Source of the DNA: Cliona cf. orientalis
Taxonomy: Eukaryota; Porifera; Demospongiae; Clionaida; Clionaidae
Length of the DNA stretch: 64,000 nt
Reading direction: 5' to 3'
Assembly (NCBI GenBank): GCA_963930775.1
Contig: OZ005698.1
Coordinates: 1,804,501-1,868,500 of the forward strand
The position numbers and the translations under genes are program-made. Shown in pieces: positions 10,511 to 55,909 of the stretch. Every line of letters begins with the position of its first letter. Position 1 is the first letter of the stretch. Under the pieces are notes generated by a model. The model had not been told where the DNA came from. It did not search any database and worked only from the letters and a program-made list of their open reading frames with translations.

Positions 10511-10584
10511 GCCGAGGTAGCTCAGTCTGGGAGAGCGTTAGACTGAAGATCTAAAGGTCCCTGGTTCGATCCCGGGTCTCGGCA
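10511..10584 (+). tRNA. tRNA-Phe (GAA) in BCAS3 unit B intron
   Basis: The sequence starts GCCGAGGTAGCTCAG, has the anticodon arm AGACTGAAGATCT (GAA), and a T arm with GGTTCGATCCC. The acceptor stem GCCGAGG pairs with TCTCGGC and A73 is encoded. This is the classic eukaryotic tRNA-Phe sequence, and both internal pol III boxes look intact. No intron is present. It lies in the intron after the exon ending at 10420, on the same strand. Confidence 0.95.
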
Positions 10585-11360: not shown

Positions 11361-11729
11361 GTAAGTCAAAGTGTGTATCTTACATGTACATACATGTATA
11401 TACTATAATACAGTTAAGTCAGACACTCTGGCTAATCTTGCCATAGTACTTGTGCTGTATATTTTTCTATAGCTCTGTTTGTACAGTATTATTACACACT
11501 GCACAGGGATTCCCCCAGAACAGAATCCAAACCGGTGCTTAATGATATTCATGGGCTTTTAATTAAGTTATGGCTTTAAACTCCACCCATTTCTTTGATG
11601 TTTATCCAATTAGCCCAAAGTCAAACGGGTGGCCCACCCTGATTCAGGTATGCTGGAGGAAACACTGCTGCATATAGTAAGATATTGAAGCTCTGACCTC
11701 TTTCCCTCTCTCTCTCATATTTTCTACAG

Positions 11730-12389
11730 AGGAAGAGCTCTCCAAGCCTCGCTCCGCTGCCCCCTCCTCTGAGCGTGAGTGGCTCTCTCAGGTCGAGATC
11801 CTCACCTATGCCCCTCCCAGCCGCCGGCTCTGGGTGGAACCACAGTTCTCCTTCAAAGCCTACTCCCCATCCTCCTCCTCCTCCTCTGTCAGCCCCTCTA
11901 GCGACCCTTCCTCCGCTTCATCCGCTAATGCCCTCTCCTCTGCTACCCTTCTCCACACCCCCAGCCCTCCCAATACTGTCATATACTCTAGTAGCCTCAG
12001 CTCACCACCGACAGGCAGTGGTGGTGCTACGTATAGCAGTAGCCATCATCGTCACCCTTTGCCTCATCATCACGGTTCGTTTATGACTGGAGTTCAATCG
12101 TCTCTGAGTCAGAATAGCCTGGATAATGGTGGAAGTGGTGGTAATGTTGGTGGAAGGCTTGGTTCTGGCTCTGTCGTAACGAGGGTGGAGGCTGGAGGAG
12201 GTGAGGGGGTTCCCCTACAGAGTGCGGTGCTGTTTCCAAGTCCTGAGAATCCCCTATTGGACTTGTCCGATCCTCCTGAGATTCAGAACTTGACTCTGGC
12301 ATCTATTCACTCTGAAGCTTTGTCCATGCCAACATCGTCGTATTCTGCTGGAAAGGAAGGCACGTCTGAAGCAGGAAGTGTAGATCCAG
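11730..12389 (+). CDS. BCAS3: BCAS3-like unit B, exon with BCAS3 C-terminal domain
   Basis: After CTACAG the exon reads [20 protein letters not shown], then [20 protein letters not shown] and FKAYSP. This is the diagnostic BCAS3 domain core (family: [26 protein letters not shown]). A Ser/Pro-rich linker, a His/Gly-rich stretch and the [14 protein letters not shown] motif follow. The exon ends at a phase-1 donor at 12390. In unit B every frame from 10258 through 12389 and into the last exon at 15521 is open and in phase. The penultimate 81-nt exon is lost without disturbing the frame. Confidence 0.8.
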
Positions 12390-13513
12390 GTAAAGCAAAA
12401 ATAATATTTCTGTAATTTCTAGGCTATGGTCCTTCGTGTAGTAGTAATAATATGGGGATTTATAGGATAACTTGGCTATACAAGTTATAGTTGCAAGACC
12501 TTAATTGGGGTGCATGAGATGCATGGTAGAATGCACCCCCATTAGGGTCCAGCAACTAGTTTGTTGGCCCATGATCCCTTCCCATCATTGGCCTACCCTA
12601 ACCCTTGGGTATCTGACAATTTGCCTACTAAACTTCACTATTTGGCAGAGACTGTTTTTATCAGTAAGGAAAACGCTGTTTCCTTGCTGAAAATGTGCAA
12701 GGGTGCTCCAATTTGTGTTTTCTCGTGATCAACCACACACACTCGAACTAACATTCCTGCACTTGCTCATAGATGGCTACATGTACACATACATTGTGTC
12801 GTGTACATTCTACCATATCATGTACGCAGTGTCTAGAGTGCCGGTAAATTTATATACAAATTTATATTACCATATGCAGGAGGGGGCGGGGACTAGGGCT
12901 ACGTAAGAGTACAGTATTTTATATGGACTTACCGGCACTATAACGCTTAAATTGCGGTGCCGGTACTGGCACTGTAGACACAGCATATCATGTATTATAT
13001 GCCCACAACTGTCCATGGATATTCTACAAGTTAAAATGCATACATACATGTACCATATGCCATTATAGATATTTGTTAGCATTCCCAATTACTGCCCATG
13101 GACTACTCAGCAGCTGCTGTTGCTGTCCACCTTGTGTGCAGGCATAGAACTTTTAAAAAAAGTGAGAAAAGGAGAGTGGGAGCCTGAGCTGGGAAGGAGG
13201 TTAGTGTGTGTGTGTCTTCAATGTGTTTTATGAGACCACTACAGTATAAGGATATGAACCTAGTAGACTAATATGGGGATTCATGATAATTGGGAGGTCT
13301 ATAAGAGGAATCCATATTACAATAGGTACCACTTAAGGGATCTGGATTGTGTAAGGGTGCTCCCTCAGCAGATCTTTGGCTGTAAACAGGGTGACTACCC
13401 AGGGAATGCTGCAAGGTTGCAAATTTGTGGAAAGAAGTTGCTATAGCTTTTCCTGGGAGCAAGCTAGCTGAGAGGTGCACTACACTTTCAAGTTGCTAAA
13501 TTATTAGTGCAAA
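12390..13513. other. Intron of unit B upstream of nested gene, no other gene seen
   Basis: The segment corresponds to 179-2410 of unit A but is shorter. It includes a G/C-poor imperfect inverted pair near 12838-12965 (GTGCCGGTA motifs) and the conserved block ahead of the CARD-like start codon. No independent gene is recognised. Confidence 0.35.
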
Positions 13514-27425: not shown

Positions 27426-28229
<804 letters not shown>

Positions 28230-35564: not shown

Positions 35565-37515
35565 TATGCCAGTGATGGTAGTGTTTTCAGTGATGACAGT
35601 GTTTCCAGTGATTGTAGTGTTTTCAGTGTTTCCAGTGATGACAGTGTTTTCAGTGATTCCATGGCAGTGATGGCAGTGATGGTAGTGTTTTCAGTGATTC
35701 AAGTGATGACAGTGTTTTCAGTGATGACAGTGTTTTCAGTGATTCCATGGCAGTGATGGCAGTGTTTCCAGTGATGGTAGTGTTTTCAGTGATTCAAGTG
35801 ATGACAGTGTTTTCAGTGATTCCAGTGATGACCGTGTTTTCAGTGATTCTAGTGATGGCAGTGTTTCCAGTGATGGTAGTGTTTTCAATGATTCCAGTGT
35901 TTTCAGTGTTTCCAGTGATGGCAGTGTTTTCAGTGATTCTAGTGATGGCAGTGTTTCCAGTGATTGTAGTGTTTTCAGTGATGCCAGTGATGGCAGTGTT
36001 TCCAGTGATTGTAGTGTTTTCAGTGATTCCAGTGTTTTCAGTGTTTCTAGTGATGGCATGTAGCGTTTCCAGTGATGGTAGTGTTTTCAGTGATTCCAGT
36101 GTTTTCAGTGTTTCCAGTGATGGCAGTGTTTTCAGTGATTCTAGTGATGGCAGTGTTTCCAGTGATTGTAGTGTTTTCAGTGATTCCAGTGTTTTCAGTG
36201 TTTCCAGTGATGATAGTGTTTTCAGTGATGCCAGTGATGCCAGTGTTTCCAGTGATGACAGTGTTTTCAGTGATGGCAGTGTTTCCAGTGATGGTAGTGT
36301 TTTAAGTGTTTCCAGTGTTTCCAGTGATGACAGTGTTTTCAGTGATGCCAGTGATGGCAGTGTTTCCAGTGATTATAGTGTTTTCAATGATTCCAGTGAT
36401 GACAGTGTTTTCAGTGATTCCAGTGTTTTCAGTGATGCCAGTGATGGCAGTGTTTCCAGTGATTGTAGTGTTTTCAGTGATTCCAGTGTTTTCAGTGTTT
36501 CTAGTGATGGCATGTAGCATTTCCAGTGATGGTAGTGTTTTCAGTGATTCCAGTGTTTTCAGTGATTCCAGTGATGACCGTGTTTTCAGTGATTCTAGTG
36601 ATGGCAGTGTTTCCAGTGATGGTAGTGTTTTCAGTGATTCCAGTGTTTTCAGTGTTTCCAGTGATGATAGTGTTTTCAGTGATGCCAGTGATGCCAGTGT
36701 TTCCAGTGATTGTAGTGTTTTCAGTGATTCCAGTGATGATAGTGTTTTCAGTGACTCCAGTGTTTTCAGTGTTTCTAGTGATAGCAGTGTTTCCAGTGAT
36801 GGTAGTGTTTTCAGTGATTCCAGTGTTTTCAGTGTTTTCAGTGATGGCAGTGTTTCCAGTGATGGTAGTGTTTTAAGTGTTTCCAGTGTTTCCAGTGATG
36901 ACAGTGTTTTCAGTGATGCCAGTGATGGCAGTGTTTCCAGTGATTATAGTGTTTTCAATGATTCCAGTGATGACAGTGTTTTCAGTGATTCCAGTGTTTT
37001 CAGTGTTTCTAGTGATGGCAGTGTTTCCAGTGATGGTAGTGTTTTCAGTGATTCCAGTGATGACAGTGTTTTCAGTGATTCTAGTGATAGCAGTGTTTCC
37101 AATGATGGTAGTGTTTTCAGTGATTCCAGTGTTTTCAGTATTTTCAGTGATTCCAGTGTTTTCAGTGTTTCTAGTGATGGCAGTGTTTCCAGTGATGGTA
37201 GTGTTTTCAGTGATTCCAGTGTTTTCAGTGTTTCCAGTGATGATAGTGTTTTCAATGATGCCAGTGATGGTAGTGTTTCCAGTGATTGTAGTGTTTTCAG
37301 TGATTCCAGTGTTTTCAGTGTTTCCAGTGATGACAGTGTTTCCAGTGATTGTACGTAGTGTTTTCAGTGATGCCAGTGATGACAGTGTTTCCAGTGATGA
37401 TAGTGTTTCCAGTGTTTCCAGTGATGGTAGTGTTTTCAGTGATTCCAGTGCCGAGTTCAGTGTTTCCAGTGATGACAGTGTTTTCAGTGATGGTAGTGTT
37501 TCCAGTGATTGTAGT
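35565..37515. repeat. 2-kb minisatellite with 9-bp period
   Basis: The region is built from 9-base words of form AGTGWTNNN (AGTGTTTTC, AGTGATTCC, AGTGATGGC, AGTGTTTCC, AGTGATGAC). Because the period is a multiple of three and stop codons are rare, long frames stay open on both strands. One is Ser/Asp-rich ([16 protein letters not shown]), others are Val/Phe- or Thr/Leu/Glu-rich. Higher-order repetition is visible: ATGGCATGTAGC recurs at 36052 and 36507. No start context, splice site or conserved flank points to a real gene. Confidence 0.85.
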
Positions 37516-38544
37516 GTTCTCAACATCATGCATGCAATGGTAAAGAATAGTTGATCATGTCTATATGATATTGTATGTATTCAGGGTTCCATCCAAGTAT
37601 CTTGGGATTGAAGACTAAGTGGGCATATGGCAGTTTCATGCACTAATCCCCCCCCCCCCCCAATTAATTAAAATGAATTTTTGGGTGTCGTTGAGGTATT
37701 AAAATTGGCTTTGATCACTTGTATAATAATATACTGCAGCAAAATACACCCTCCCCTCTCCCCCTCCATCTCTCTCTCCTTTCCCTATAATCCTTTGGAA
37801 GGAGTGGGTGGGAGGGACTGAGTGTTTTGGGGTTCCCCCATGCATGCATCCCTTACCCTGTTCAAACACTAGTATATATTATCTACCAGTTTTATAGATC
37901 CTAAGACAGTGAAGGTTGAGGCTTGGGACCTAGCTAAGCCACACTCAACTTGATGTTTCGTGTGATCAATCACTCTTGCATACACCTGATGCTAGCTTAA
38001 ATGTGCACACCTTACCTGCACTACTCTAGGTTAATTTACTACACACTTACGCATAATCAATAGTGGTACCAACACAGAAAGCCATGAAAGGTGCTCCGGC
38101 ATGTTAGAGAGGTAAATTTATTCGCTCCAGTGTTTATATTATTAATTATTACTTTCACATATGCATGTCATGTTGAGAATGACCTTTAATTTGCATGCTT
38201 CAAGCATGTGCATATCTAAAGGAAATCTGGCATGGTGATAATAATTTATTATTAAACTTTTATTCACTCCGTTAATTGTTGATAATAAGTACCTGATTGC
38301 ATGAATATTATCATACAATAACGGAGATTTGATTCTTATCACATGCACATTGCACAGCTGTGTAATTATTATTATGCGACAAGTGCAGCATTGCTGTGTA
38401 CGTGTTTTCAGCTAAAAATTCTGCCCTTCCAGACCAAATTTTATACCAATTTACCTGGAGTACACACAAAATGCTCATCCTCACACACTCAGAAGTCATC
38501 AATACCATTGTCTACTGTTTACACCACTCTGTGCAGTTACCCAT
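37516..38544. other. Gene-free interval
   Basis: This is AT-rich sequence with a short C-run at about 37650. No coding region, RNA or repeat structure is recognised. Confidence 0.3.
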
Positions 38545-44454: not shown

Positions 44455-45275
44455 TGGTGGCTTAGATCCTAAGCTATAATTCCTAAGTCATGATTGGCTT
44501 AGATCCTATTGATTGCGCTGGCTTGATGGCGGCTTAGATCCTAAGCTGATGGCACTGGCTTAGATTCTAAGCTCAAAATAGCGCTAAGTGGAGAGTGGCT
44601 CAGATCCTTTGGCTTAGATTCTAAGCCAAGGGTGGCTTAGATCCTAAGCTGATGGCACTGGCTTAGATTCTAAGCTGAAAGTGGCTAAGCGGAGAGTGGC
44701 TTAGATCCTAAGCCAAGTGTGGCTTAGATATACTAGTGGCTTAGATCCTAAGCTGATGATACTGGCTTAGATTCTAAGCTAAGCGGAGGTTGGCTTAGAT
44801 CCTAAGCCGAGGGTGGCTTAGATCCTAAGCTGATGGTACTGGCTTAGATTCTAAGCTAAGCGGAGGTTGGCTTAGATCCTAAGCCGAGGGTGGCTTAGAT
44901 ACTAGTGGCTTAGATCCTAAGCTGATGGTACTGGCTTAGATTCTAAGCTAAGCAGAAGTTGGCTTAGATTCTAAGCCGAGGGTGGCTTAGATACTAGTGG
45001 CTTAGATCCTAAGCTGATGGTACTGGCTTAGATTCTAAGCTCAGCGGAGGTTGGCTTAGATCTTAAGCCGAGGGTGGCTTAGATCCTAAGCTGATGGTAC
45101 TGGCTTAGATTCTAAGCTAAGCAGAAGTTGGCTTAGATCCTAAGCCGAGGGTGGCTTAGATACTAGTGGCTTAGATCCTAAGCTGATGGTACTGGCTTAG
45201 ATTCTAAGCTAAGTGGAGGTTGGCTTAGATCCTAAGCCGAGGGTGGCTTAGATCCTAAGCCACCCTCGGTTCTTT
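44455..45275. repeat. Right cluster of CTTAG palindromes
   Basis: Copies of GGCTTAGATCCTAAGC are arranged in a partly regular higher-order repeat of about 95-130 bp (GATGGTACTGGCTTAGATTC recurs). Confidence 0.85.
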
Positions 45276-45984
45276 AAAGTGTAAATTTTTACAGAATCCG
45301 GAAAAAAAATATTCCGGATCTTAATATTCTCGGGTTAAAAAGTGGGTACCAGCTGATTGATCAACACTTTATCAGTCCATAATAATGTAGTTCAGGCGTT
45401 GTGACAAATATCGATTTACTCGTGTTGAACAGCTACCGTATACGTAATCGCTCGATCAGACGCCGCGGCTACAACTCATCGCCTGAGTTTGTGCGGCGAC
45501 AATTCGAGAGCGACGTTTATTAATACCAGTAGCTGCCAGAGAGGCAATCCTTAGAGAAATGGTCGATTGACACCACTCATCTGGTCATTCAGAACTTAGT
45601 GTAAAATAGGCTTTTTAACCTAGAGTTACTCTAGGGACAATTTTAAGTGACTCCAACCTTGAGTTACTCTAGGGACAATTTTACACCACTCCAACCTTGA
45701 TCTACTCTAGGCAAAGATTTAAACTTTCACAAATGGTGTAAAATCCCGAATATATAATGCTAGCAATTAGTATTTTATATGGGAAAATTTTACACCAGTT
45801 TGGATGTCCACTTAAAATGCTGATGGGTAGAAGTGAGAATCTATACTATGGCAAAGTTTTACACCACTTCAGGAACTCAGAGGACAAGTGGTGTAAATTC
45901 ACCCCATAATATAAGCAGAACATAGCTACAGATCCAGCATAGTTTTACAGGTGACCTATGACCTCACTTAAAATTTTGCCTATT

Positions 45985-46391
45985 TAATAGCTACATACAA
46001 TAATCAGGTAGACATTTACACAGCTAGCTAGCTCTTGCATGTAGCTATACAGCAATAATCAGGTAGACATTTACACAGCTAGCTAGCTCTTGCATGTAGC
46101 TATACAGCATTCCCTGGCAACGACCTTTGTCCTTAGCCCAATTAGACGATCTTTGACCTTAAGTACCTTATCAAGTTCTGTAACATCAATGACAGCATAA
46201 TGAGAGGTGAGCAAACAATAAGTAATAAACTCTAAAATATTATAAACTTAGCATAGATAGATATTGAATAAATAAATAATCACGTACACGATCACATAAA
46301 GTTTAATAGCGTGATACAATTGGGAGACCTTTGATCTTAAGTAGTAACATTAATGATAATTTTAAATCGAAGGGGTGAGCAATTCAACTAA
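45985..46391. repeat. Short direct duplication and 3' flank of transposase gene
   Basis: A 56-bp unit containing CAATAATCAGGTAGACATTT is present twice in tandem (about 45999-46108). The rest up to the stop codon at 46392 is AT-rich and non-coding. Confidence 0.7.
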
Positions 46392-49300
46392 CTAGTCAAT
46401 AAACTCTAAATCATCATCATCGAGAGTTGTTTCAATGGTTTCATTATCAACTGGAAAAAAAATTCCGTATTTTCCATTGACGACGTTGTAGGTAGCAATT
46501 ATTCCTTCGTACCACTCTGTATGGTCATCAACATCGAATAACATCTTAACTCTCCTTCCAATTGCACCTGGATCACGGCTAGGAACTAAGCTCAGAGTGG
46601 TATTGCCCACTTCCACAGCCCTTCTTTTTTCAGAAGAACCTGAGTTGCCGTTTGAGGTCATTCTTCTTTTTCTTGATCTAACTTGAGGTGAAACGTGACT
46701 ATCTGTGGTAATGGGTTCACTTTCACCATTGTTTGAAGATGAAGGTGCAAAATTCGATAATTTATCTGGTGGTCCAAACTGTGCAGTTTTGTCAGGGGCC
46801 AGTACCTTCTGTCTTTGTTTTTGCTTCCTTTGTGCATCTGCCAGCCGTGCCTCTTCACTACGGGAACGATAAGATAGACTTATGTTTTGCTCTGCTGCAA
46901 TATACTTTAAGCATGCTACTTTATCCAGTTTATAAACCTTCATCATGGCCAGCTTTAAGCTTCCTGGATTGTCACACTTGCAGTCCTTGTTCTTTCTTTC
47001 AACAGCATTGGTTGTAGTAGGACATTTGTTCCAGACAGCTGCATCCATAGATGTGAATACCTTGGACAACATTTTTAGATGTTCACACCTTGCCCACCAC
47101 TGTGCCCAGTGTTTCGCAATTGTCCAATCACACTCTTTGTCTACCATATCTATTTCTTCGTTTGTTAGCTTCAATGTTTGTACCTTCTTAGAAAGTTCAT
47201 TTAAGGATCTAACACCACACAATGCTTCAAAACATGCTACAACATTAACAGCTGTGGTCAACTTTGGAATAATATAGCATATTTTTAAGAAAATGTCCTT
47301 TTCCTCCTTTCGTTTGGCCACTCTGTCAGCAACTCGCTGACAAGAGCGATTCCAATGAACAGAACATCCTTTTAATAAATTGTCGGCTACAGTTTTGCCT
47401 ACTGCTTGTCTGAGACCATTAGTCTCAGCATCACTCCAGTCAGTTAATACGCCAAGGAGGGTAGAACCAGGTAGAAAATTTTCATTGATACTTGAGCATT
47501 TTGCAAATATCTTTTTAAATGCTAGTGCATATGCTTCAGAAGTTTGCCTGTTTAACCTTACTCGTGCTATGACCATCCATTCCATAGATACCGAGTTAAA
47601 CGCAACAGCATTAAATAGATAGGGATAATCACTTAGCTCATCATAGGTAATATCACATTGTATAAATTCCGCTTCAGATGCAATTTTTGCCATCAGGGGT
47701 GACATTGTAAATATGTATCTTATACCCTCTTCAATTCCTGCGGACACTAAATATGGTCGTCCTTGCTTTTGATATTTTTTTAATTTATCTTGATCATCAC
47801 CACTTATCTTATCGTCATCACTGTCTATGGCATCAGCAACTCTTTCGAAATCAAATGGAGACCAACCTTTGTCAATGAGACCCTTCTTTATCTTTGTCCT
47901 CCTTACTTCTTGTGATACTTTTCCCACATGACTACTTGCATCATCAGCTGCAGACGGTAAAAATCCTATTCCTTGACCTCGTACTATGTCTGATGTTGTT
48001 AATGATGGATTAGCAGAAACTGCAGCTGAAATTTTTTGCCTGACACACTGAGATATCTTAGTAGAACTATGTAGAGGATGGTTGTGCAGATTATCACTTG
48101 AACCTTTCTGACCACGTACCAGTCCTCCGATCCAACGCCTGTTATCTGATGGTTCTTTAGGATGAATATAAACAAATTCAACTGGACAATCTGTACTTTT
48201 TTCAAGATTCATATCATGGTCAGGACACTTTCTCCTATCTCTTATTGGAACTACATACTTGCAACCCTCTTGAGGACACTGTTTTATCCCTGAGCAAGGT
48301 GTTGATCGGTAATATACATCTTCCTTTTTACCATCAATATCAGCAGTTATAAGTCTGGGTTTGTTCAGTTGACCTTTAGATAGCTGAATGTCTTTCCATA
48401 GAAAGTGAGGATCATCGCAGTTTTGTTCCAGCTTTGTTATGTCAGATATATAATACAATTGCTGTTGACGCTTTGAGGAAAATGCACCCGGAAAATGAAA
48501 ATCTCTTTTTGTCTTGGAGATAATCCAGTTTTCAGATTCTGACAAACATTTACGTACTACAGAGAGCATATGACTGCCCTTACCTTCTCTTATTTTTTTC
48601 TCTGTCCTGCTTGTACCAGGTACTGCACCATAAGGAGACATTGCAGGTGCACTAACATGCTTGCTTTGGTGTACTGGTAACAGGAGTTCTTTATCGTCAG
48701 AATTTGCCAATTCTCTACCTTCAGGAAGAGGAGAGTATACACCATGAACAGCATAGGTTCCATTTGTTTTAATCATGGATTTCAGTTCAAATTTGATGAG
48801 TGATTTCACATGGCACTGCTTAATAAATTGTCTCCAGAAATTTATATCTTTCCCACAGTGATTGCCATATGATAGGGCTTTTTTATCATGCATATCAGTC
48901 CAGGGAATATTCGATCCTCGTATCCACTCAGCTATCTTCACTTCCCCTTTGCACCCTACCACATCAAGGGCATCAATAAGAACCTTCAGTTCCGGTTTGT
49001 GGTCAGATACATTTGTGTTATTTTTACAAACGTCACAACAGTCACCTAGAGATGTCGGTTTAGTGTCTTCTTCTCCAAATATGTTGACAATCAGGCGGCG
49101 CCGACACTTACCACTTAAATGTGCATATATGTATTTCCATGACTCTGAAAATCCTGATAAAATTCTGTCACACCTTTCCTTGTTCGATAGGTTATTCAAA
49201 ACCCAAGCATTGGCATGTGATACATCACCTTTCCTGAAAAGGATGGTTGCCCAGGACTGCTTACCATCCCTTCCTGCTCTTCCCATTTCCTGAACCCAGG

Positions 49301-50378
49301 ATAACATATTTTCCGGTACACCATTGCGAACTATGTGCCTAATATCTGGTTTGTTAATACCCATCCCAAAGGCTTTCGTGGCAACAATAACTTTAACATC
49401 ATCAGATTTCCATCTCACATATGATTCATGCCTTGATGGGCCATCAAGTTCCCCATGATATCCAACTGCCTCAATCCCTAATTCTGCTAAAGAGCTAATA
49501 ATTGGACCGATATCTGAGATAAAATCAGTATAGATGATTGCAGATGAGGTACCGATGATATCTGCAGCTCTACGAGCAAACTGCATTGCTGGTGGTGTAC
49601 ATTTATTTGGTGAAGGGAGCTCCTCTACGCTCAGATAGATGTTGGGTCGATTCACTGATGCCTTAACTACACGAGGATGTCTCAGTAAATCTTTCATATT
49701 CTCTACAGTATCGGGCTTCGCTGTAGCGGTCAGGGCCATTATTGGAACATCAGGAAAGTCGTACTTGAGCTTCTTGAGATCTCTGTATGCATTTCTAAAA
49801 TCAGCCCACTCACAATATAGGTGTGCTTCATCAACTGCAATCAGGCTTAACTGCTTCCTGCTGGCTAACAACTGTATTTTAGACAGATTGCCTGGTTTTG
49901 TTATCCATTCTGGTGTGACAAAAATAAGGGACACCTTAGAGTTCGGTTCAAATACACGTTTCTCAATGGTTTTATCAAACTGGGCTGAGCCTAAATAAAC
50001 TGAAGAAATTCCCATTTCATTAAGTTTGTCTACTTGATCCTGCATTAGACTTATTGTTGGTGTGATAATAATTCCTTTCTTATTCTCATGAACAGGAGGA
50101 AACTGGAAACAAAGGCTTTTGCCACTTCCTGTAGGATATACAACTAATGTGTCTTTTCCCTGTAGGGTTGCGTCTATGACCTCCCTTTGGAATCGCTTAA
50201 ATGATGTTAATTTAAATCGCTCAGCCAGTGTAGCTATCAAGGTTGCATTTTGAAGAGAATCATCCAACGAAGGTGAGCTAAATATAGCATCGTCCCTATC
50301 ATCAAACTCAAATTGAGAATTTTGACTCTCTGTGTGGTCCATATGCTCTGTACTTTGATCTGCAGACTTTATTTCCAT
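46392..50378 (-). CDS. RecQ helicase-MULE transposase-Tudor-like fusion protein
   Basis: A single uninterrupted frame of 1328 codons. Residues about 50-400 form a RecQ-type SF2 helicase: TGSGKS at about 83-88, DEAH at about 181-184, then MALTATA and QEMGRAGRDGK at about 361-371. A RecQ-style cysteine cluster (GDCCDVCKNN, about 444) and a winged-helix-like stretch follow. A second zinc-binding-like segment (QCPQEGCKYVV then CPDHD) lies at about 700-722. A MULE transposase core follows, with CDITYDE at about 907, GVLTDWSD at about 977, GCSVHW at about 1003 and TTNAVERKN at about 1122 as the likely Asp-Asp-Glu triad and CxxH motif. A basic linker (RSRKRRM) leads to a Tudor/agenet-like end (GRRVKMLFDVDDHTEWYEGI) at about 1273-1328. 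Role inferred: excision and insertion of the surrounding transposon, with the helicase perhaps opening ends or aiding repair. The start Met is the first in frame; TATAATATAAG lies upstream. Confidence 0.85.
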   Translation of the reverse strand: MEIKSADQSTEHMDHTESQNSQFEFDDRDDAIFSSPSLDDSLQNATLIATLAERFKLTSFKRFQREVIDATLQGKDTLVVYPTGSGKSLCFQFPPVHENKKGIIITPTISLMQDQVDKLNEMGISSVYLGSAQFDKTIEKRVFEPNSKVSLIFVTPEWITKPGNLSKIQLLASRKQLSLIAVDEAHLYCEWADFRNAYRDLKKLKYDFPDVPIMALTATAKPDTVENMKDLLRHPRVVKASVNRPNIYLSVEELPSPNKCTPPAMQFARRAADIIGTSSAIIYTDFISDIGPIISSLAELGIEAVGYHGELDGPSRHESYVRWKSDDVKVIVATKAFGMGINKPDIRHIVRNGVPENMLSWVQEMGRAGRDGKQSWATILFRKGDVSHANAWVLNNLSNKERCDRILSGFSESWKYIYAHLSGKCRRRLIVNIFGEEDTKPTSLGDCCDVCKNNTNVSDHKPELKVLIDALDVVGCKGEVKIAEWIRGSNIPWTDMHDKKALSYGNHCGKDINFWRQFIKQCHVKSLIKFELKSMIKTNGTYAVHGVYSPLPEGRELANSDDKELLLPVHQSKHVSAPAMSPYGAVPGTSRTEKKIREGKGSHMLSVVRKCLSESENWIISKTKRDFHFPGAFSSKRQQQLYYISDITKLEQNCDDPHFLWKDIQLSKGQLNKPRLITADIDGKKEDVYYRSTPCSGIKQCPQEGCKYVVPIRDRRKCPDHDMNLEKSTDCPVEFVYIHPKEPSDNRRWIGGLVRGQKGSSDNLHNHPLHSSTKISQCVRQKISAAVSANPSLTTSDIVRGQGIGFLPSAADDASSHVGKVSQEVRRTKIKKGLIDKGWSPFDFERVADAIDSDDDKISGDDQDKLKKYQKQGRPYLVSAGIEEGIRYIFTMSPLMAKIASEAEFIQCDITYDELSDYPYLFNAVAFNSVSMEWMVIARVRLNRQTSEAYALAFKKIFAKCSSINENFLPGSTLLGVLTDWSDAETNGLRQAVGKTVADNLLKGCSVHWNRSCQRVADRVAKRKEEKDIFLKICYIIPKLTTAVNVVACFEALCGVRSLNELSKKVQTLKLTNEEIDMVDKECDWTIAKHWAQWWARCEHLKMLSKVFTSMDAAVWNKCPTTTNAVERKNKDCKCDNPGSLKLAMMKVYKLDKVACLKYIAAEQNISLSYRSRSEEARLADAQRKQKQRQKVLAPDKTAQFGPPDKLSNFAPSSSNNGESEPITTDSHVSPQVRSRKRRMTSNGNSGSSEKRRAVEVGNTTLSLVPSRDPGAIGRRVKMLFDVDDHTEWYEGIIATYNVVNGKYGIFFPVDNETIETTLDDDDLEFID

Positions 50379-51449
50379 TTCCTATAATATAAGCATCACA
50401 TGTAATTACCTTTACCTGTGACTCTATTAAACGACATGCTTTGTATCAGCTTTGCTAATTTGTGAGTTGCAAAAAGAAAAAAAAACGTATATAGTTATTC
50501 GTTGATCATGAGGGTAGAGCCTTAAGGCAATTTTGTAAAAATTATTATATATATGTAACACTCTAAGCAATTTCTCATTCTATAGAGCAAAAGATGTGGG
50601 CAGTAACTGCTATGGTAGCTGCTCTATGACAGCTACTCAAGTATTATTATTATTATTGTTACCATTATTATTATGATGATGATGATTGTGAGCCTTATCA
50701 TTCTTATTCTTACTATTGATATTAGGTACAGCAGTAATGGTAATTATTTCTAATGGTATATTACTATAGACTAAGCAGCCAATTATTTATTTCCCCAATT
50801 TGTAGCTCCCACCAGCAGTAACGTAGTCTCTATTACACCAAATATTGCCGCCCGGAAGTTTTTGATCTTATATCTCCTGCCAGAGGGTCATAAAGTTCTG
50901 GATAAAATTCTACAGTGTTTCTGCATGTCCTCCCTGCATATCTCTTGTCAGCTAACAAGCTCCTATGATTTTTGAGCTCTGATTTTCAGTGCTTTCTACT
51001 TTTAATTTCCATCTCTTTTGGTATAGGCCTTTTTCACTATGCCTAATGGCTGGTTTCTTGCCCCATTCCTTCCTGTTTACTTCCTTTCGCCCAAAAGAAG
51101 GCTGAGTAATTAATCTTCAGGTCCGTGGCACACTTCAATAAGATTCGGACACTATACAATCGGATAATCCCATAATTCATAATAATTCGTAGTAAATGAC
51201 TATATCGATAATAGGTACGGATTGGTTATTATGCTACTTATATAGATTATGGCTATTTATTACAGGACATTTAACCAGCAAAATAATATTGTGATGCGAG
51301 AGGGAATGGAAAATGAAATTCACTTGGGGGCAATATTGAGATTGTACCTCTCAATTATTTCACTCAGATGTACAATTATTTCATGTATATGCACCTTCGA
51401 GGAAACAGAGTTCACACTAATTGTCACACTGGTCAATCTGAGATGAGAC
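50379..51449. other. Interval between the two transposon genes
   Basis: AT-rich sequence with ATT/ATG trinucleotide tracts near 50640-50690. It is probably the promoter and 5' region of the helicase-transposase gene. I recognise no further gene. Confidence 0.35.
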
Positions 51450-51844
51450 ACTACAGTATATTATGTCCCCGGTAGCAATTTACTTTTCTGTGGTTATGAG
51501 GCAATTATGGTGTAATCTATGATGAAACCTATAATAACATAGAACCATCTATACATAAAACCCACTGCTCTTCTGAACCACATAAACCCCATAAAGTTTA
51601 ATTACCCATGCAGTGTTCTCTCCAGAATTTGCAGTGATGCATTGGGGGGGGGGGGGGGGGTAGTTTGGATAGCTACATACATTTTTGACAATCATGTTTT
51701 GCCATTCTAGTCAGTAATTAATTATATTTTACTAATAGTTTTAGTCATCCACAATCTAACAGAGGGCATAATACTATTACTGCAACAGTGCAGTACCTCA
51801 CTAAATAGCATAGCGTCAATGCTGTATTTACTGAATTTTCATAC

Positions 51845-51984
51845 CTTAACACTATGACGTCTTCGTCGTGGGTGCTTGTGCCACTGATCATTACAGACAG
51901 TACACCTGGCTGATGAACACTCTTCACAATAAAACTTCGCTGGTTCACCACAGGAGGTACAGGTATCAGTATCCACTATGCTCT
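51845..51984 (-). CDS. Ubiquitin-like/B-box-like protein, exon 2
   Basis: After CTCTCAG the exon reads ESIVDTDTCTSCGEPAKFYC, then EECSSARCTVCNDQWHKHPR and RRRHSVK. The C-x2-C, C-x2-C, C-x2-C and His pattern resembles a B-box-type zinc finger. The frame joins exon 1 in phase (G+AG) over a 83-base intron. It ends at GTTAAG before GTATGA, which gives a stop two codons on if unspliced; the possible downstream acceptors also lead quickly to stops. The total protein is therefore about 150 residues. Confidence 0.6.
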
Positions 51985-52067
51985 CTGAGAGTAAAGTATA
52001 ATATGTACAATTGGAGTAAGATGTTTAGATACAGTCATTACGCAAGCACCACAATTGCACCATTTAC

Positions 52068-52374
52068 CAGTATCAGAGATGTCGTCCTTTCCACCACCCA
52101 AACCTTTGATTAACAACTGAATACATGTCCCATTTTCTATGGAATAACGTTGGAGGGGTGTTTGTGGTTGAAGCAGTTGACCTCCAAGTGATAGCATCTG
52201 ATGGCTTGGTGGTATGCCATATAATTTGTGAATACTTGAAAATACTTCACTACACAACGTCTTTTCACCAATTTCCATACTAAGGTGCTTGACTTTTTCT
52301 CCTGGCCCTTTGACTATAAGGTCAACCTGTTTAGTCGCTTTTGATCCTTGGTGTTTCAACCTGTCAATGTTCAT
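52068..52374 (-). CDS. Ubiquitin-like/B-box-like protein, exon 1
   Basis: The ATG begins MNIDRLKHQGSKATKQVDLI. Residues about 16-88 show a ubiquitin-like fold pattern: a beta strand (VDLIVKGPG), EKVKHLSMEIGEKTLCSEVF, a helix with SIHKLYGIPPSHQMLSLGGQ, a QTPLQRYSIENGTCIQLLIK segment and a GLGGG end. The IPPSHQMLSLGGQLL part corresponds to the ubiquitin IPPDQQxLxFxGxxL motif. The GG-type end followed by more sequence recalls ubiquitin-fusion precursors. Within the transposon it lies upstream of the helicase gene on the same strand. It could modify host ubiquitin or SUMO signalling; that is inference. Confidence 0.65.
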
Positions 52375-52572
52375 AATAAAAATATTATGGTTTTATATCA
52401 ATGCATGGCTCTGTGTTTAATGATTAGGTTTGCATACATGATCATTAATAATTAAATATTTGCCTCTAAAAGTAATAATCAGATGCTGATTCACAGAGAT
52501 GAAATTGATAGCACAGCAGAGTTCCATAACTTCTGCTTAATGCAGCGACTGTCATGGTAATTAATTTAATGC

Positions 52573-52760
52573 AGGCGCTGATCCAGAAATTTTGCATGGA
52601 AGGTGGCTGATGGGGTGGCTACCCATAGTAAACTATACTGATGGAGGGGGGTGGCTGGTTAATAATGGTGAATGTCTCCCATACTACTCTGCATAAAAGA
52701 ACTAGTGAAGGGGGTGGCTAGCCACCCCATCCACCCCCCCCCCCCCCCCGATCAGCCCCT
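52573..52760. mobile_element. Small MITE, GGCGCTGATCCAG...GATCAGCCCCTG
   Basis: The ends are inverted relatives of the hAT-like GGGGCTGATC motif, with repeats of GGTGGCTA inside and a C-run. It lies inside the large transposon. Confidence 0.5.
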
Positions 52761-53145
52761 GTAATGTGTATATGCATGAATGCATATTAATATTACAATA
52801 GTCTCATGGGTCAGCCCCCTTCACCCATGAGAATAGCGCAGGCCAGCTTAATTTATATGCGGGATCATTACAAGGGAACATGCACATGAAGTTCGATCAA
52901 CCATACTTGTCGGAGCCTGAAAGCCTATATAACATGCAGCTCGTAAGGTATTCGCTGGATACATGTGTTACATAATCTACATAATCTACATAATATTAAT
53001 TTTCAAGTCTCAGAATGGCTCCCTAGCTTTGATTAGCTACCTCATAAATTATGGAACAATATAACAATATATATATTCAGTATACATTATACCATAATTG
53101 GCTCATAACCACAGAAAAGTAACTTGATTGCTACTGGGATATAAC

Positions 53146-54084
53146 TGCATGTGTGTGATGTAAATCCTTGTGGGGCGTGTATTCACTTGTAATCAGTGCA
53201 AGCGCATGCGCAATAATTAAATTTTGCAATTTGCCTGGCTCTATATAGCTGCTCCATGCCGGTCTTCTTGGTCCCTGGACTTTCAGGATAACATGTGCAC
53301 TCTTGGCTACCTTCCCTACCTCTAATCACTCTCTATATATTCCTTACACGTTCTGCTATATATACCTGCTGTAGCTATTCTCCTTCATCTTGTTCTCCCA
53401 CATAAAGGTGATATAATATGCGCTGTGTAGTACGCTATTCTTACTTTCCTTACATAATTATTTGCATTCTTAATTCTTCCAAGGCTCTGGTTCTAGCTCC
53501 TTGCTGCTATTTTATTATATCTAAATCCTTTCCCCTAATTTTTCTCAGCCTGCAGTTTATCCATGGGGGTAGCTAGCTTTTTGTGGCATTTAATTATAAT
53601 TTAATTTATTAATATTTGTTTTGTTGAGCAAACTATATTATATTATGGTACAACACATCCCATTACTATTATAGATCAGTGGAGTAGGAACCGGGGGGGG
53701 GCGGGGGGGGGGGCCACTCCCCCCCCCCCCCCAGTATTTCAGAAGGGGGGTCTGGCCCCCCCCCAATAATCAGGCCTAATACATAACCATGAATTCTTCC
53801 AATTCATCATGCATGACTTTCTTCACAAAAGTCTGGATTAAACTACTAGAATATTACCTTAAAAAAGATATATTCAATAATAGTTATTGCGATCACAAAA
53901 TTCAGTAATCAAAGCCACACCCACAACCTGTATCGGTGGCCCCTGCAACACGCAATTGCTTCCTACTCCACTGTAGATGATTACAATATGAGCCCCCTCC
54001 CAAATTTCTTAATGTTAACCCTTGAGGGATCACTACTGTAGCTAACATCATAATATTGTGCTACTGAAAGTAAATCGTCTTGAG
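53146..54084. other. Gene-free interval with G/C-run repeat
   Basis: AT-rich sequence. A G/C-run element at about 53680-53770 (GGAACCGGGGGGGG, then CCCCCCAGTATTTC) is related to the repeat at 217-800. No gene is recognised. Confidence 0.35.
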
Positions 54085-54372
54085 TCACCCACTGGCTAAC
54101 CTTATCTTGCGAGATACCCGTGCAAGACTCTGATGCCGTCTCACCACCACCATCATCACCACAAGCATTCCAAAGATGGTGGTCATTGCAGAGTAGGGGT
54201 GTCGATAATCCAGAAGGTAGAACGATTTGGGAGCAAAAAGGATGTTTGTCCGATCATACTGAGGAGATACTCGTGGGAGGTGTGCTTCTAAAGAAGCAGG
54301 TGAATGGCTGAGGTCACCTCCCAGTAGCAGGATCAGCAAGAAACACTTCCAAAGGTTCCAACACATAGCCAC
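54085..54372 (-). CDS. Possible small membrane protein near right terminal repeat
   Basis: A 95-codon frame begins MAMCWNLWKCFLLILLLGG, which looks like a signal peptide or membrane segment. A second hydrophobic stretch (AMTTIFGMLVVMMVVV) follows at about residues 62-77, then a basic end. An overlapping frame (54314-54499) encodes unrelated sequence. Both start close to the right inverted repeat on the same strand as the other transposon genes. Neither is recognised, and either could be chance. Confidence 0.2.
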   Translation of the reverse strand: MAMCWNLWKCFLLILLLGGDLSHSPASLEAHLPRVSPQYDRTNILFAPKSFYLLDYRHPYSAMTTIFGMLVVMMVVVRRHQSLARVSRKIRLASG

Positions 54373-55138
54373 CAGACAAAATCAAGTCAACTGTGCCCGC
54401 CAAACGAGGGTCAAAGGTAGCTTGAATGGTGTAATGGCGGTTCTTTCTGTTGGCGGTTCTCGCTATTGGCGGTTCTCGCAGGATATTGCGCATGCGCAAA
54501 AACTCCGTATCTACTGTGCAAAAAAATGCAGCATCAATTTTGCATGCGCGTGCGAGTACGTACGTGCACAGCGCAGCGTGGGGTCAAAGTTCACCTATGC
54601 ATTTTCGTGTAATATAAGACTTTTACTATTCAAGGTAAAATTTCACCTCATTATAATCCTTATATTATATATAGGCAAAATTTTAAGTGAGGTCATAGGT
54701 CACTGGTAAAACTACGCTGGATCTGTATGTCAGTCTGCTTATATTATGGGGTGAATTTACACCACTTGTCCTCTGAGTTCCTGAAGTGGTGTAAAATTTT
54801 GCCATAGTATAGATTCTCACTTCTATCCATCAGCATTTTAAGTGGACATCCAAACTGGTGTAAAATTTTCCCATATAAATTACCAATTGCTAACATTATA
54901 TATTCGGGATTTTACACCATTTGTGAAAGTTTAAATCTTTGCCTAGAGTAGATCAAGGTTGGAGTGGTGTAAAATTGTCCCTAGAGTAACTCAAGGTTGG
55001 AGTCACTTAAAATTGTCCCTAGAGTAACTCTAGGTTAAAAAACCTATTTTACACTATTTTATGTAGGACCCACTCATCTAGGAGATTCTGGCCGCTTTGC
55101 TGACGTAGAAGATGATTAGAACTTGTTTTAGACTGTTT

Positions 55139-55472
55139 CATAGTTGCCAAGTGTCCCGGTTTGGCCGGGACAGTCCCGGAATTTGGCCCTATGTCCCGGT
55201 TGTGTCCCGGTTTACCTGATTTTGCAGCATTGTCCCGGAATCCAGCTCGATTGTACAAATGGAGGTGTGGCACAAGCATAAACTCAGTATATTATCGAAT
55301 TTCAGTCCGTATATCTCGATGTTTAGTGGGTGTGGCAGTACACGATCGTCCGAAAGTGGGTGTGGTCGACCAAAAGTGGGCGTGGTCCGTAAATTTTCGC
55401 GCGCGCTTCGCGCGCGTTAATACTATTTTCTACTTTGTCCCGGCTTCTCTTCTTATACACTTGGCAACTATG
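55139..55472. mobile_element. 334-bp MITE with CATAGTTGCCAAGTGT ends
   Basis: The exact 16-base ends are inverted (CATAGTTGCCAAGTGT and ACACTTGGCAACTATG). TGTCCCGG words recur inside. It is inserted in the right part of the outer TA-flanked element, just outside the large transposon. Confidence 0.75.
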
Positions 55473-55909
55473 CTGTTTATCGTGTACCTGCCATCGAGAA
55501 CGAGTCGCGAGGCATGTCCACGTGCTGCGTGCTTCTCGAATAGTAGGCGTGGCGCGGCTACTATTCGATTCGAGAGCGGTGACTATTTCGTTCATCACTT
55601 CCGGAGGTGCGGCGACTAATCGAGAGCGGCGTCTGATCGAGCGAATACGGTACTTGCGATTGTGTGCCCTGAAATAAGCCAGCTAATTGAGAGTATAATC
55701 ACGTAATACCTCTAAGTCAGTGATAAAACACATCTGAATTGATATCAATGATTAATGGGGGGAGGGGGGGATACAGTGTGTGAAAATTGTCACGCCCACA
55801 TCTCCCGCAAACAAAATGAAACCCTGCATATATTTTTCCTGGTAACTATGCATAATTTTACATAATAATGAACACCACTGGTGTTAAACTCTCGGCGCTG
55901 TCAGATTTA

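Follow-up and report, generated by a model that had tools for sequence, protein, structure and literature searches.

A RecQ helicase fused to a putative MULE-type transposase in a mobile element of the sponge Cliona cf. orientalis

The window analysed here, a stretch of 64,000 nucleotides from the sponge Cliona cf. orientalis (contig OZ005698.1, here C10:1804501-1868500, in a searched genome of 216.8 Mb and 149 contigs), contains a complete DNA transposon of 9488 bp at positions 45583-55070. Its minus strand holds an ATG frame of 1328 codons (46392-50378) in which a RecQ helicase precedes a putative DDE (Asp-Asp-Glu) transposase core. A preliminary description, made from the letters alone, had proposed a MULE-type transposon whose transposase is fused to a RecQ helicase and a Tudor-like reader. 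The features are listed by window position, with residues numbered in the 1328-codon frame.

45574..45582, no strand: left target-site duplication CACTCATCT, 9 bp (flank comparison)
45583..45986, plus: left terminal inverted repeat, starting GGTC (repeat search, BLAST)
45600..45605, plus: TGTAAA subterminal motif, left end (the same motif is described for the IS256 family in PMC7780238)
45617..45730, plus: three 38-bp subterminal units, left (compared with unit 1, unit 2 is 87% and unit 3 63% alike)
46392..50381, minus: exon 3, with RecQ helicase, Cys/His region, DDE core and Tudor-like tail (holds the 1328-codon frame and its stop)
46395..46622, minus: Tudor-like tail, residues 1253-1328 (Pfam matches of relatives; structure model)
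46749..47771, minus: putative DDE core, residues 870-1210, with D909, D980, C1005xxH1008 and E1127 (fold, motif, relatives)
48078..48308, minus: Cys/His-rich region, residues 691-767, a candidate DNA-binding zinc region (alignment)
48609..49001, minus: RQC-like region, approximately residues 460-590 (Pfam RQC in relatives; TIGR01389)
49002..50228, minus: RecQ helicase core, residues 51-459 (TIGR00614)
51845..51984, minus: predicted exon 2, B-box zinc finger (splice model; Pfam zf-B_box 9.8e-7, over cut-off)
52068..52374, minus: predicted exon 1, whose ubiquitin-like domain ends in LGGG (splice model; Pfam ubiquitin 2.3e-8)
54668..55070, minus: right terminal inverted repeat, starting GGTC (repeat search, BLAST)
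54929..55042, minus: three 38-bp subterminal units, right (repeat search)
55048..55053, minus: TGTAAA subterminal motif, right end (motif pattern search)
55071..55079, no strand: right target-site duplication CACTCATCT, 9 bp (flank comparison)

The RecQ helicase that had been read in the long frame is borne out by a match to TIGR00614 (recQ_fam) over residues 51-459, with an E value of 3e-103 and 346.1 bits against a cut-off of 219.8, and the solved structures closest by sequence are WRN (1.5e-69), the RecQ entry 1oyw (2.7e-63) and RECQ1 (6.7e-60). A match to TIGR01389 (recQ) reaches residue 549, and RQC, which Pfam does not call in the window protein, is matched by Pfam in 6 of 12 family members. 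The entire helicase core and the RecQ zinc region are thus shared with the cellular helicases WRN, RecQ and RECQ1, as is RQC in the relatives, but here they are fused to a transposase within a mobile element. The cysteines noticed earlier downstream of the helicase belong to a region whose Cys and His residues are invariant across 12 aligned proteins, and which is a candidate for binding zinc and DNA.

The gene starts further upstream than had been described, and exons 1 and 2, with their ubiquitin-like (Ubl) and B-box domains, had been missed. Both join exon 3 through GT-AG borders with fitting phases, for a predicted product of 1478 residues, and both head domains score over their Pfam cut-offs. 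In relatives P0006, P0007 and P0016 the alignment places a comparable head in one frame with the helicase; P0006 and P0016 have Pfam B-box-type matches below the cut-offs, and Pfam does not call ubiquitin in these two, whose Ubl part is read from the alignment. The splice model predicts a single spliced gene for the whole protein, with the domain order ubiquitin-like, B-box, RecQ helicase with RQC, Cys/His region, DDE core with CxxH and Tudor-like tail.

The element is bounded by inverted arms at 45583-45919 and 54734-55070 that are 97% identical over 337 ungapped bp, with further arms at 45927-46019 and 54635-54727 at 81%; BLAST delimits terminal inverted repeats of 404 bp at 95% identity. 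Both ends start with GGTC, and CACTCATCT flanks the element on either side. The 9.5-kb unit with inverted ends of about 400 bp in the preliminary description stands, except that it ends at 55070 rather than 55069, and its 10-bp duplication shrinks to 9 bp, the supposed tenth base being the last base of the GGTC terminus. Chance is ruled out as the origin of the inverted repeats, as two further full-length copies share the same ends. Across 15 elements, GGTC stands at 30 of 30 ends; the sequence then varies up to about position 15 and continues, at 29 of 30 ends, with TGTAAA (searched as that stretch or its one variant, with one internal match left out of the count). The core of the 38-bp units, GTTACTCTAGG, recurs in the element C7:7147299-7154585, whose protein is 44% identical and which has GGTC ends but carries TGCATAAA where TGTAAA is expected. 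Inside the window element, a 51-nt inverted pair (51476-51526 and 53076-53126, 88% alike and 1.5 kb apart) is perhaps a smaller nested insertion.

Searching the genome with the left end (91 matches; 40 of 167 candidates scored) located three full copies, namely that of the window on C10 and one each on C6 and C4, as well as a related family with ends 69-73% alike. The three close copies, found on three different contigs, each have a 9-bp duplication of their own, and the 1329-codon frame is intact in all of them. Only 23 aligned positions differ, 10 of them within a G-rich run at 53702-53721; 12 of the other 13 are transitions, and each pair is separated by 6-8 gaps. Segmental duplication is ruled out as their source, the 500-bp flanks being mutually unmatched. 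A 9-bp duplication flanks 13 of 15 two-ended elements (exact by script in 12, the C6 copy being the thirteenth), one has 8 bp, and in one the duplication is degraded; that of the C6 copy, ATTTTTGTC, appears with the right end read 15 nt further out, which is the BLAST end.

Paralogous empty sites are also present in the genome. The window element is itself inserted in a repeat, and 12 of the 40 matches listed (646 candidates) cross the flank junction at 86-90% identity and extend 58-60 bp past it. The window itself holds empty-site matches for the element C4_4.3, at 45443-45512 (81%) and 55626-55649 (24/24), both extending beyond the junction by 8 bp. The 9-bp duplications, which differ among the three near-identical insertions, and the empty sites support recent mobility of the element, as the preliminary description had supposed; the further copies and empty sites it proposed to look for were both found. 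The related family includes internally shortened elements of 883 to 3351 bp with the same ends, which fit gap repair after cut-and-paste and fit other routes equally. Elements with ends of the related family also hold other long frames (L051, C11:8.71 Mb, 931 codons; L052, C1:14.88 Mb, 1217 codons; L049-L050, C7:1.32 Mb, 858 codons), which suggest cargo or nested elements.

The putative DDE core was compared with known structures, as had been proposed; it is RNase H-like, with a C/DxxH motif between the second D and the E, and its best fold match is the IS256-family element ISCth4. Among ungapped rows of a 49-row alignment, D909 is conserved in 42 of 43, D980 in 44 of 45, E1127 in 32 of 34, C1005 in 42 of 44 and H1008 in 42 of 43. 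Pfam calls no Tudor-type domain in the window protein itself, and the proposed Tudor-like tail is supported by its relatives, which match Chromo_MORC2_6th (best 9.2e-7, 29 bits, cut-off 27, in P0057) and Tudor_5 (best 6e-5), and by six strands modelled at residues 1253-1317.

By its ISCth4 fold match, its DDE and CxxH residues and its 9-bp duplication, the transposase looks MULE/IS256-like. The CxxH between second D and E, the 9-bp duplication and the long inverted ends are shared with both MULE/MuDR and IS256 elements, and the duplication length falls within the 8-11 bp, typically 9, of MULE/MuDR. With IS256 it further shares ends that vary over the first ~15 bp and then carry TGTAAA: in PMC7780238, ISCth4 varies mostly in its first 14 bp, and the subterminal TGTAAA is conserved in IS256. 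What sets the element apart from MULE/MuDR and IS256 is the RecQ helicase upstream in the same protein, the Ubl-B-box head and the Tudor-like tail, as well as the weakness of its sequence-profile matches. Ordinary MULEs, to our knowledge, have no helicase. Pfam-recognised MULEs occur elsewhere in this genome (58 matches), some in frames of 1000-1308 codons.

Several comparisons weigh against this assignment. The MULE-type core read in the preliminary description finds support in fold, motif and relatives, though no Pfam transposase family exceeds its cut-off in the window protein, where the similarity to MULE or Mutator transposase profiles amounts to 13.6 bits against a cut-off of 21. The relatives' matches, below the curated cut-off where shown, number 7 of 49 for MULE (best E 0.01) and 6 of 49 for Transposase_mut (best 0.00021). 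A profile-profile comparison with nine MULE frames, near-duplicates included, scored 33.8 with an hhalign probability of 14%; two comparisons with six MULE frames were weak, one at 26.7 against 14.7-25.0 for six shuffles and one reversal, the other at 23.4 against at most 21.7 for 20 shuffles. The DUF6589 profile scored 22.0 against the DDE core, over 23 columns only, with shuffles up to 18.7. Plain Foldseek placed the P element first and did not have ISCth4 among the 50 matches listed, where a family's absence does not exclude it. The distant element C7:7147299-7154585 has the same end plan and no duplication in its flanks. On balance we consider it likely that the window holds an autonomous, recently mobile transposon of the MULE (MuDR/IS256) class, with a single spliced gene for a multi-domain transposase.

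The fusion extends well beyond the close copies. A genome search with the whole protein (35 of 414 candidates scored) gave 46 matches at 24 loci, 22 of them with both halves, one with the helicase only and one with the transposase only, these two being partial matches. Separate genes for the two halves, which the preliminary description had named as a contrary outcome, are ruled out for the relatives found among these scored candidates. The fused relatives are ~40-60% identical over the 22 loci. Between the window element and that at C1:12.45 Mb, synonymous change is saturated and nonsynonymous divergence (dN) is 0.268 in the helicase, 0.388 in RQC, 0.286 in the DDE core, 0.416 in the tail and 0.70-0.84 in the linkers. 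By these comparisons the fusion is old, and helicase and DDE core are equally slow to evolve and both constrained; since the arrangement is kept in diverged relatives, it is probably useful for the element's movement.

Of 29 matches to the transposase half in a public collection of proteins, 24 carried a precomputed DEAD or Helicase_C domain, in a search that favours fused proteins because lengths were limited to 0.55-1.75 times the query; P0002 is 100% identical over its match. A further search with only the transposase half yielded 64 proteins, and in many of these the predicted frame has no helicase domain, from either a real lack or an intron. In a divergent branch (P0054, P0057, P0060 and P0061, ~40% identical), the predicted frames begin no earlier than the linker that leads to the transposase, and here too the helicase may be truly lost or lie behind an intron. 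None of 66 pattern-matching stretches in bacterial and archaeal genome contigs, and none of 35 in viral contigs, was confirmed as a relative.

How such a protein might act can be sketched from its parts. The Cys/His region would bind the subterminal units, and the DDE core would cut the ends and join them with a 9-bp stagger. The RecQ motor, kept in place by the fusion, could open the ends or displace a strand, and could aid gap repair or copying of the long element. The Tudor-like tail may steer integration via chromatin, and the Ubl-B-box head may regulate the protein or be cleaved off.

The data are compatible with either cut-and-paste or copy-out. We regard as possible, though doubtful, an IS256-like copy-out/paste-in route, in which the helicase would open a single-strand bridge, allowing the host to copy the element as a circle: ISCth4 of the IS256 family comes closest in fold and end plan, and that family transposes by copy-out/paste-in according to PMC7780238, but the derivatives that have the same ends and internal deletions are also consistent with gap repair following cut-and-paste. 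More speculatively, this could be a eukaryotic IS256-like element with its own fork helicase, in which the DDE core would form the bridge, RecQ-RQC would open it, and a circle would be copied out and integrate with 9-bp duplications; cleavage or conjugation of the Ubl-LGGG head would license the complex, and the choice of chromatin target would fall to the Tudor-like tail. We offer this version tentatively.

Other helicase-bearing transposons have to be weighed as well. A helicase search of the genome (100 of 370 candidates scored) gave 118 matches at 82 loci, of which 23 are the fused family. Another 43 lie within 4 kb of a match to DUF6589, which we take to be the Academ transposase, and without exception on the strand opposite to it (0.3 expected by chance; for example C1:36807976-36809421 and C14:5858563-5860134), and 16 lie near neither. 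No locus is common to the 43 and the 23, no DUF6589 match was found within 6 kb of the fused-family loci, and the 16 Pfam families listed at E up to 5 for 12 family members do not include DUF6589. The DUF6589 frames of three loci contain no conserved C/DxxH; right ends were located for two DUF6589 elements. If DUF6589 is indeed the Academ transposase, the 43 loci are probably AcademH-like transposons, and on that reading one genome holds two kinds of RecQ transposon with different gene plans. Their separation from the fused loci argues, with the same proviso about DUF6589, against placing the window element itself in AcademH, the helicase-encoding lineage of Academ, which would make the fusion an already named kind and which we think rather unlikely.

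That placement has its merits. AcademH elements, from animals and fungi, are DNA transposons with a helicase and duplications of 9 or 10 bp (PMC10045372), PMC3627910 mentions a RecQ helicase for Academ, and our element has RecQ and 9 bp. Academ is, however, not among the superfamilies with C/DxxH in the lists seen in PMC9587614 and PMC10045372, and CxxH is nearly invariant in the window family. The fungal KolobokH likewise combines a DDE superfamily of C/DxxH type with a RecQ helicase (PMC9587614), but there the helicase lies downstream of the transposase, the duplication is the 4-bp TTAA and the elements are known from fungi only. Kolobok is ruled out here by 9-bp duplications of varied sequence and by the upstream, N-terminal helicase. 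RecQ helicases in transposons are already known from KolobokH and Academ/AcademH, and the novelty of the present case is lower because such helicases in other DDE transposons have been published. Among the top-ranked papers of searches in the open-licence PMC literature, with Repbase outside the search, we found no named family with this architecture and no MULE-RecQ fusion, a prior name being the other contrary outcome the preliminary description had raised.

That a single transposon copy once captured a RecQ gene of the host might be imagined, RecQ helicases being common cellular genes and 16 of the 82 helicase loci lying near neither transposon type, but it is very improbable because relatives carry the same fusion, at 22 loci and ~40-60% identity, with both halves equally constrained. 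Least credible of all is a domesticated host gene merely resembling a transposon: a long intact frame under constraint would suit it, but the three near-identical copies, which occupy unrelated sites and have inverted ends and their own duplications, contradict it, as do the internally deleted derivatives of the related family.

The surroundings of the element are repetitive in places. A tandem array of GGCTTAGATCCTAAGC-type units lies directly to its left (44506-45287), and to its right, from 55139 to 55279 (beyond joined position 260), the flank is a high-copy repeat, mostly 98-100% alike among the matches listed. Further left, 35657-37580 is repetitive, open in several frames and codes for VFSDSSV-like repeats. 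Three tRNA genes at 10511, 18126 and 25909 are spaced 7.6-7.8 kb apart and two very similar Ser-rich open reading frames (11681-12415 and 27426-28223) ~15.7 kb apart, which suggests a tandemly repeated unit of ~7.7 kb.

If the assignment to MULE is true, RecQ helicases and DDE transposases have come together in no fewer than three superfamilies, Kolobok, Academ and MULE, in different gene orders. Strand separation or repair may then limit large DNA transposons, with a fused helicase as one answer, and the three near-identical intact copies make this need for a helicase testable. The predicted Ubl-B-box head and the Tudor-like tail would, in addition, bring ubiquitin-like and chromatin-reading modules together within one transposase.

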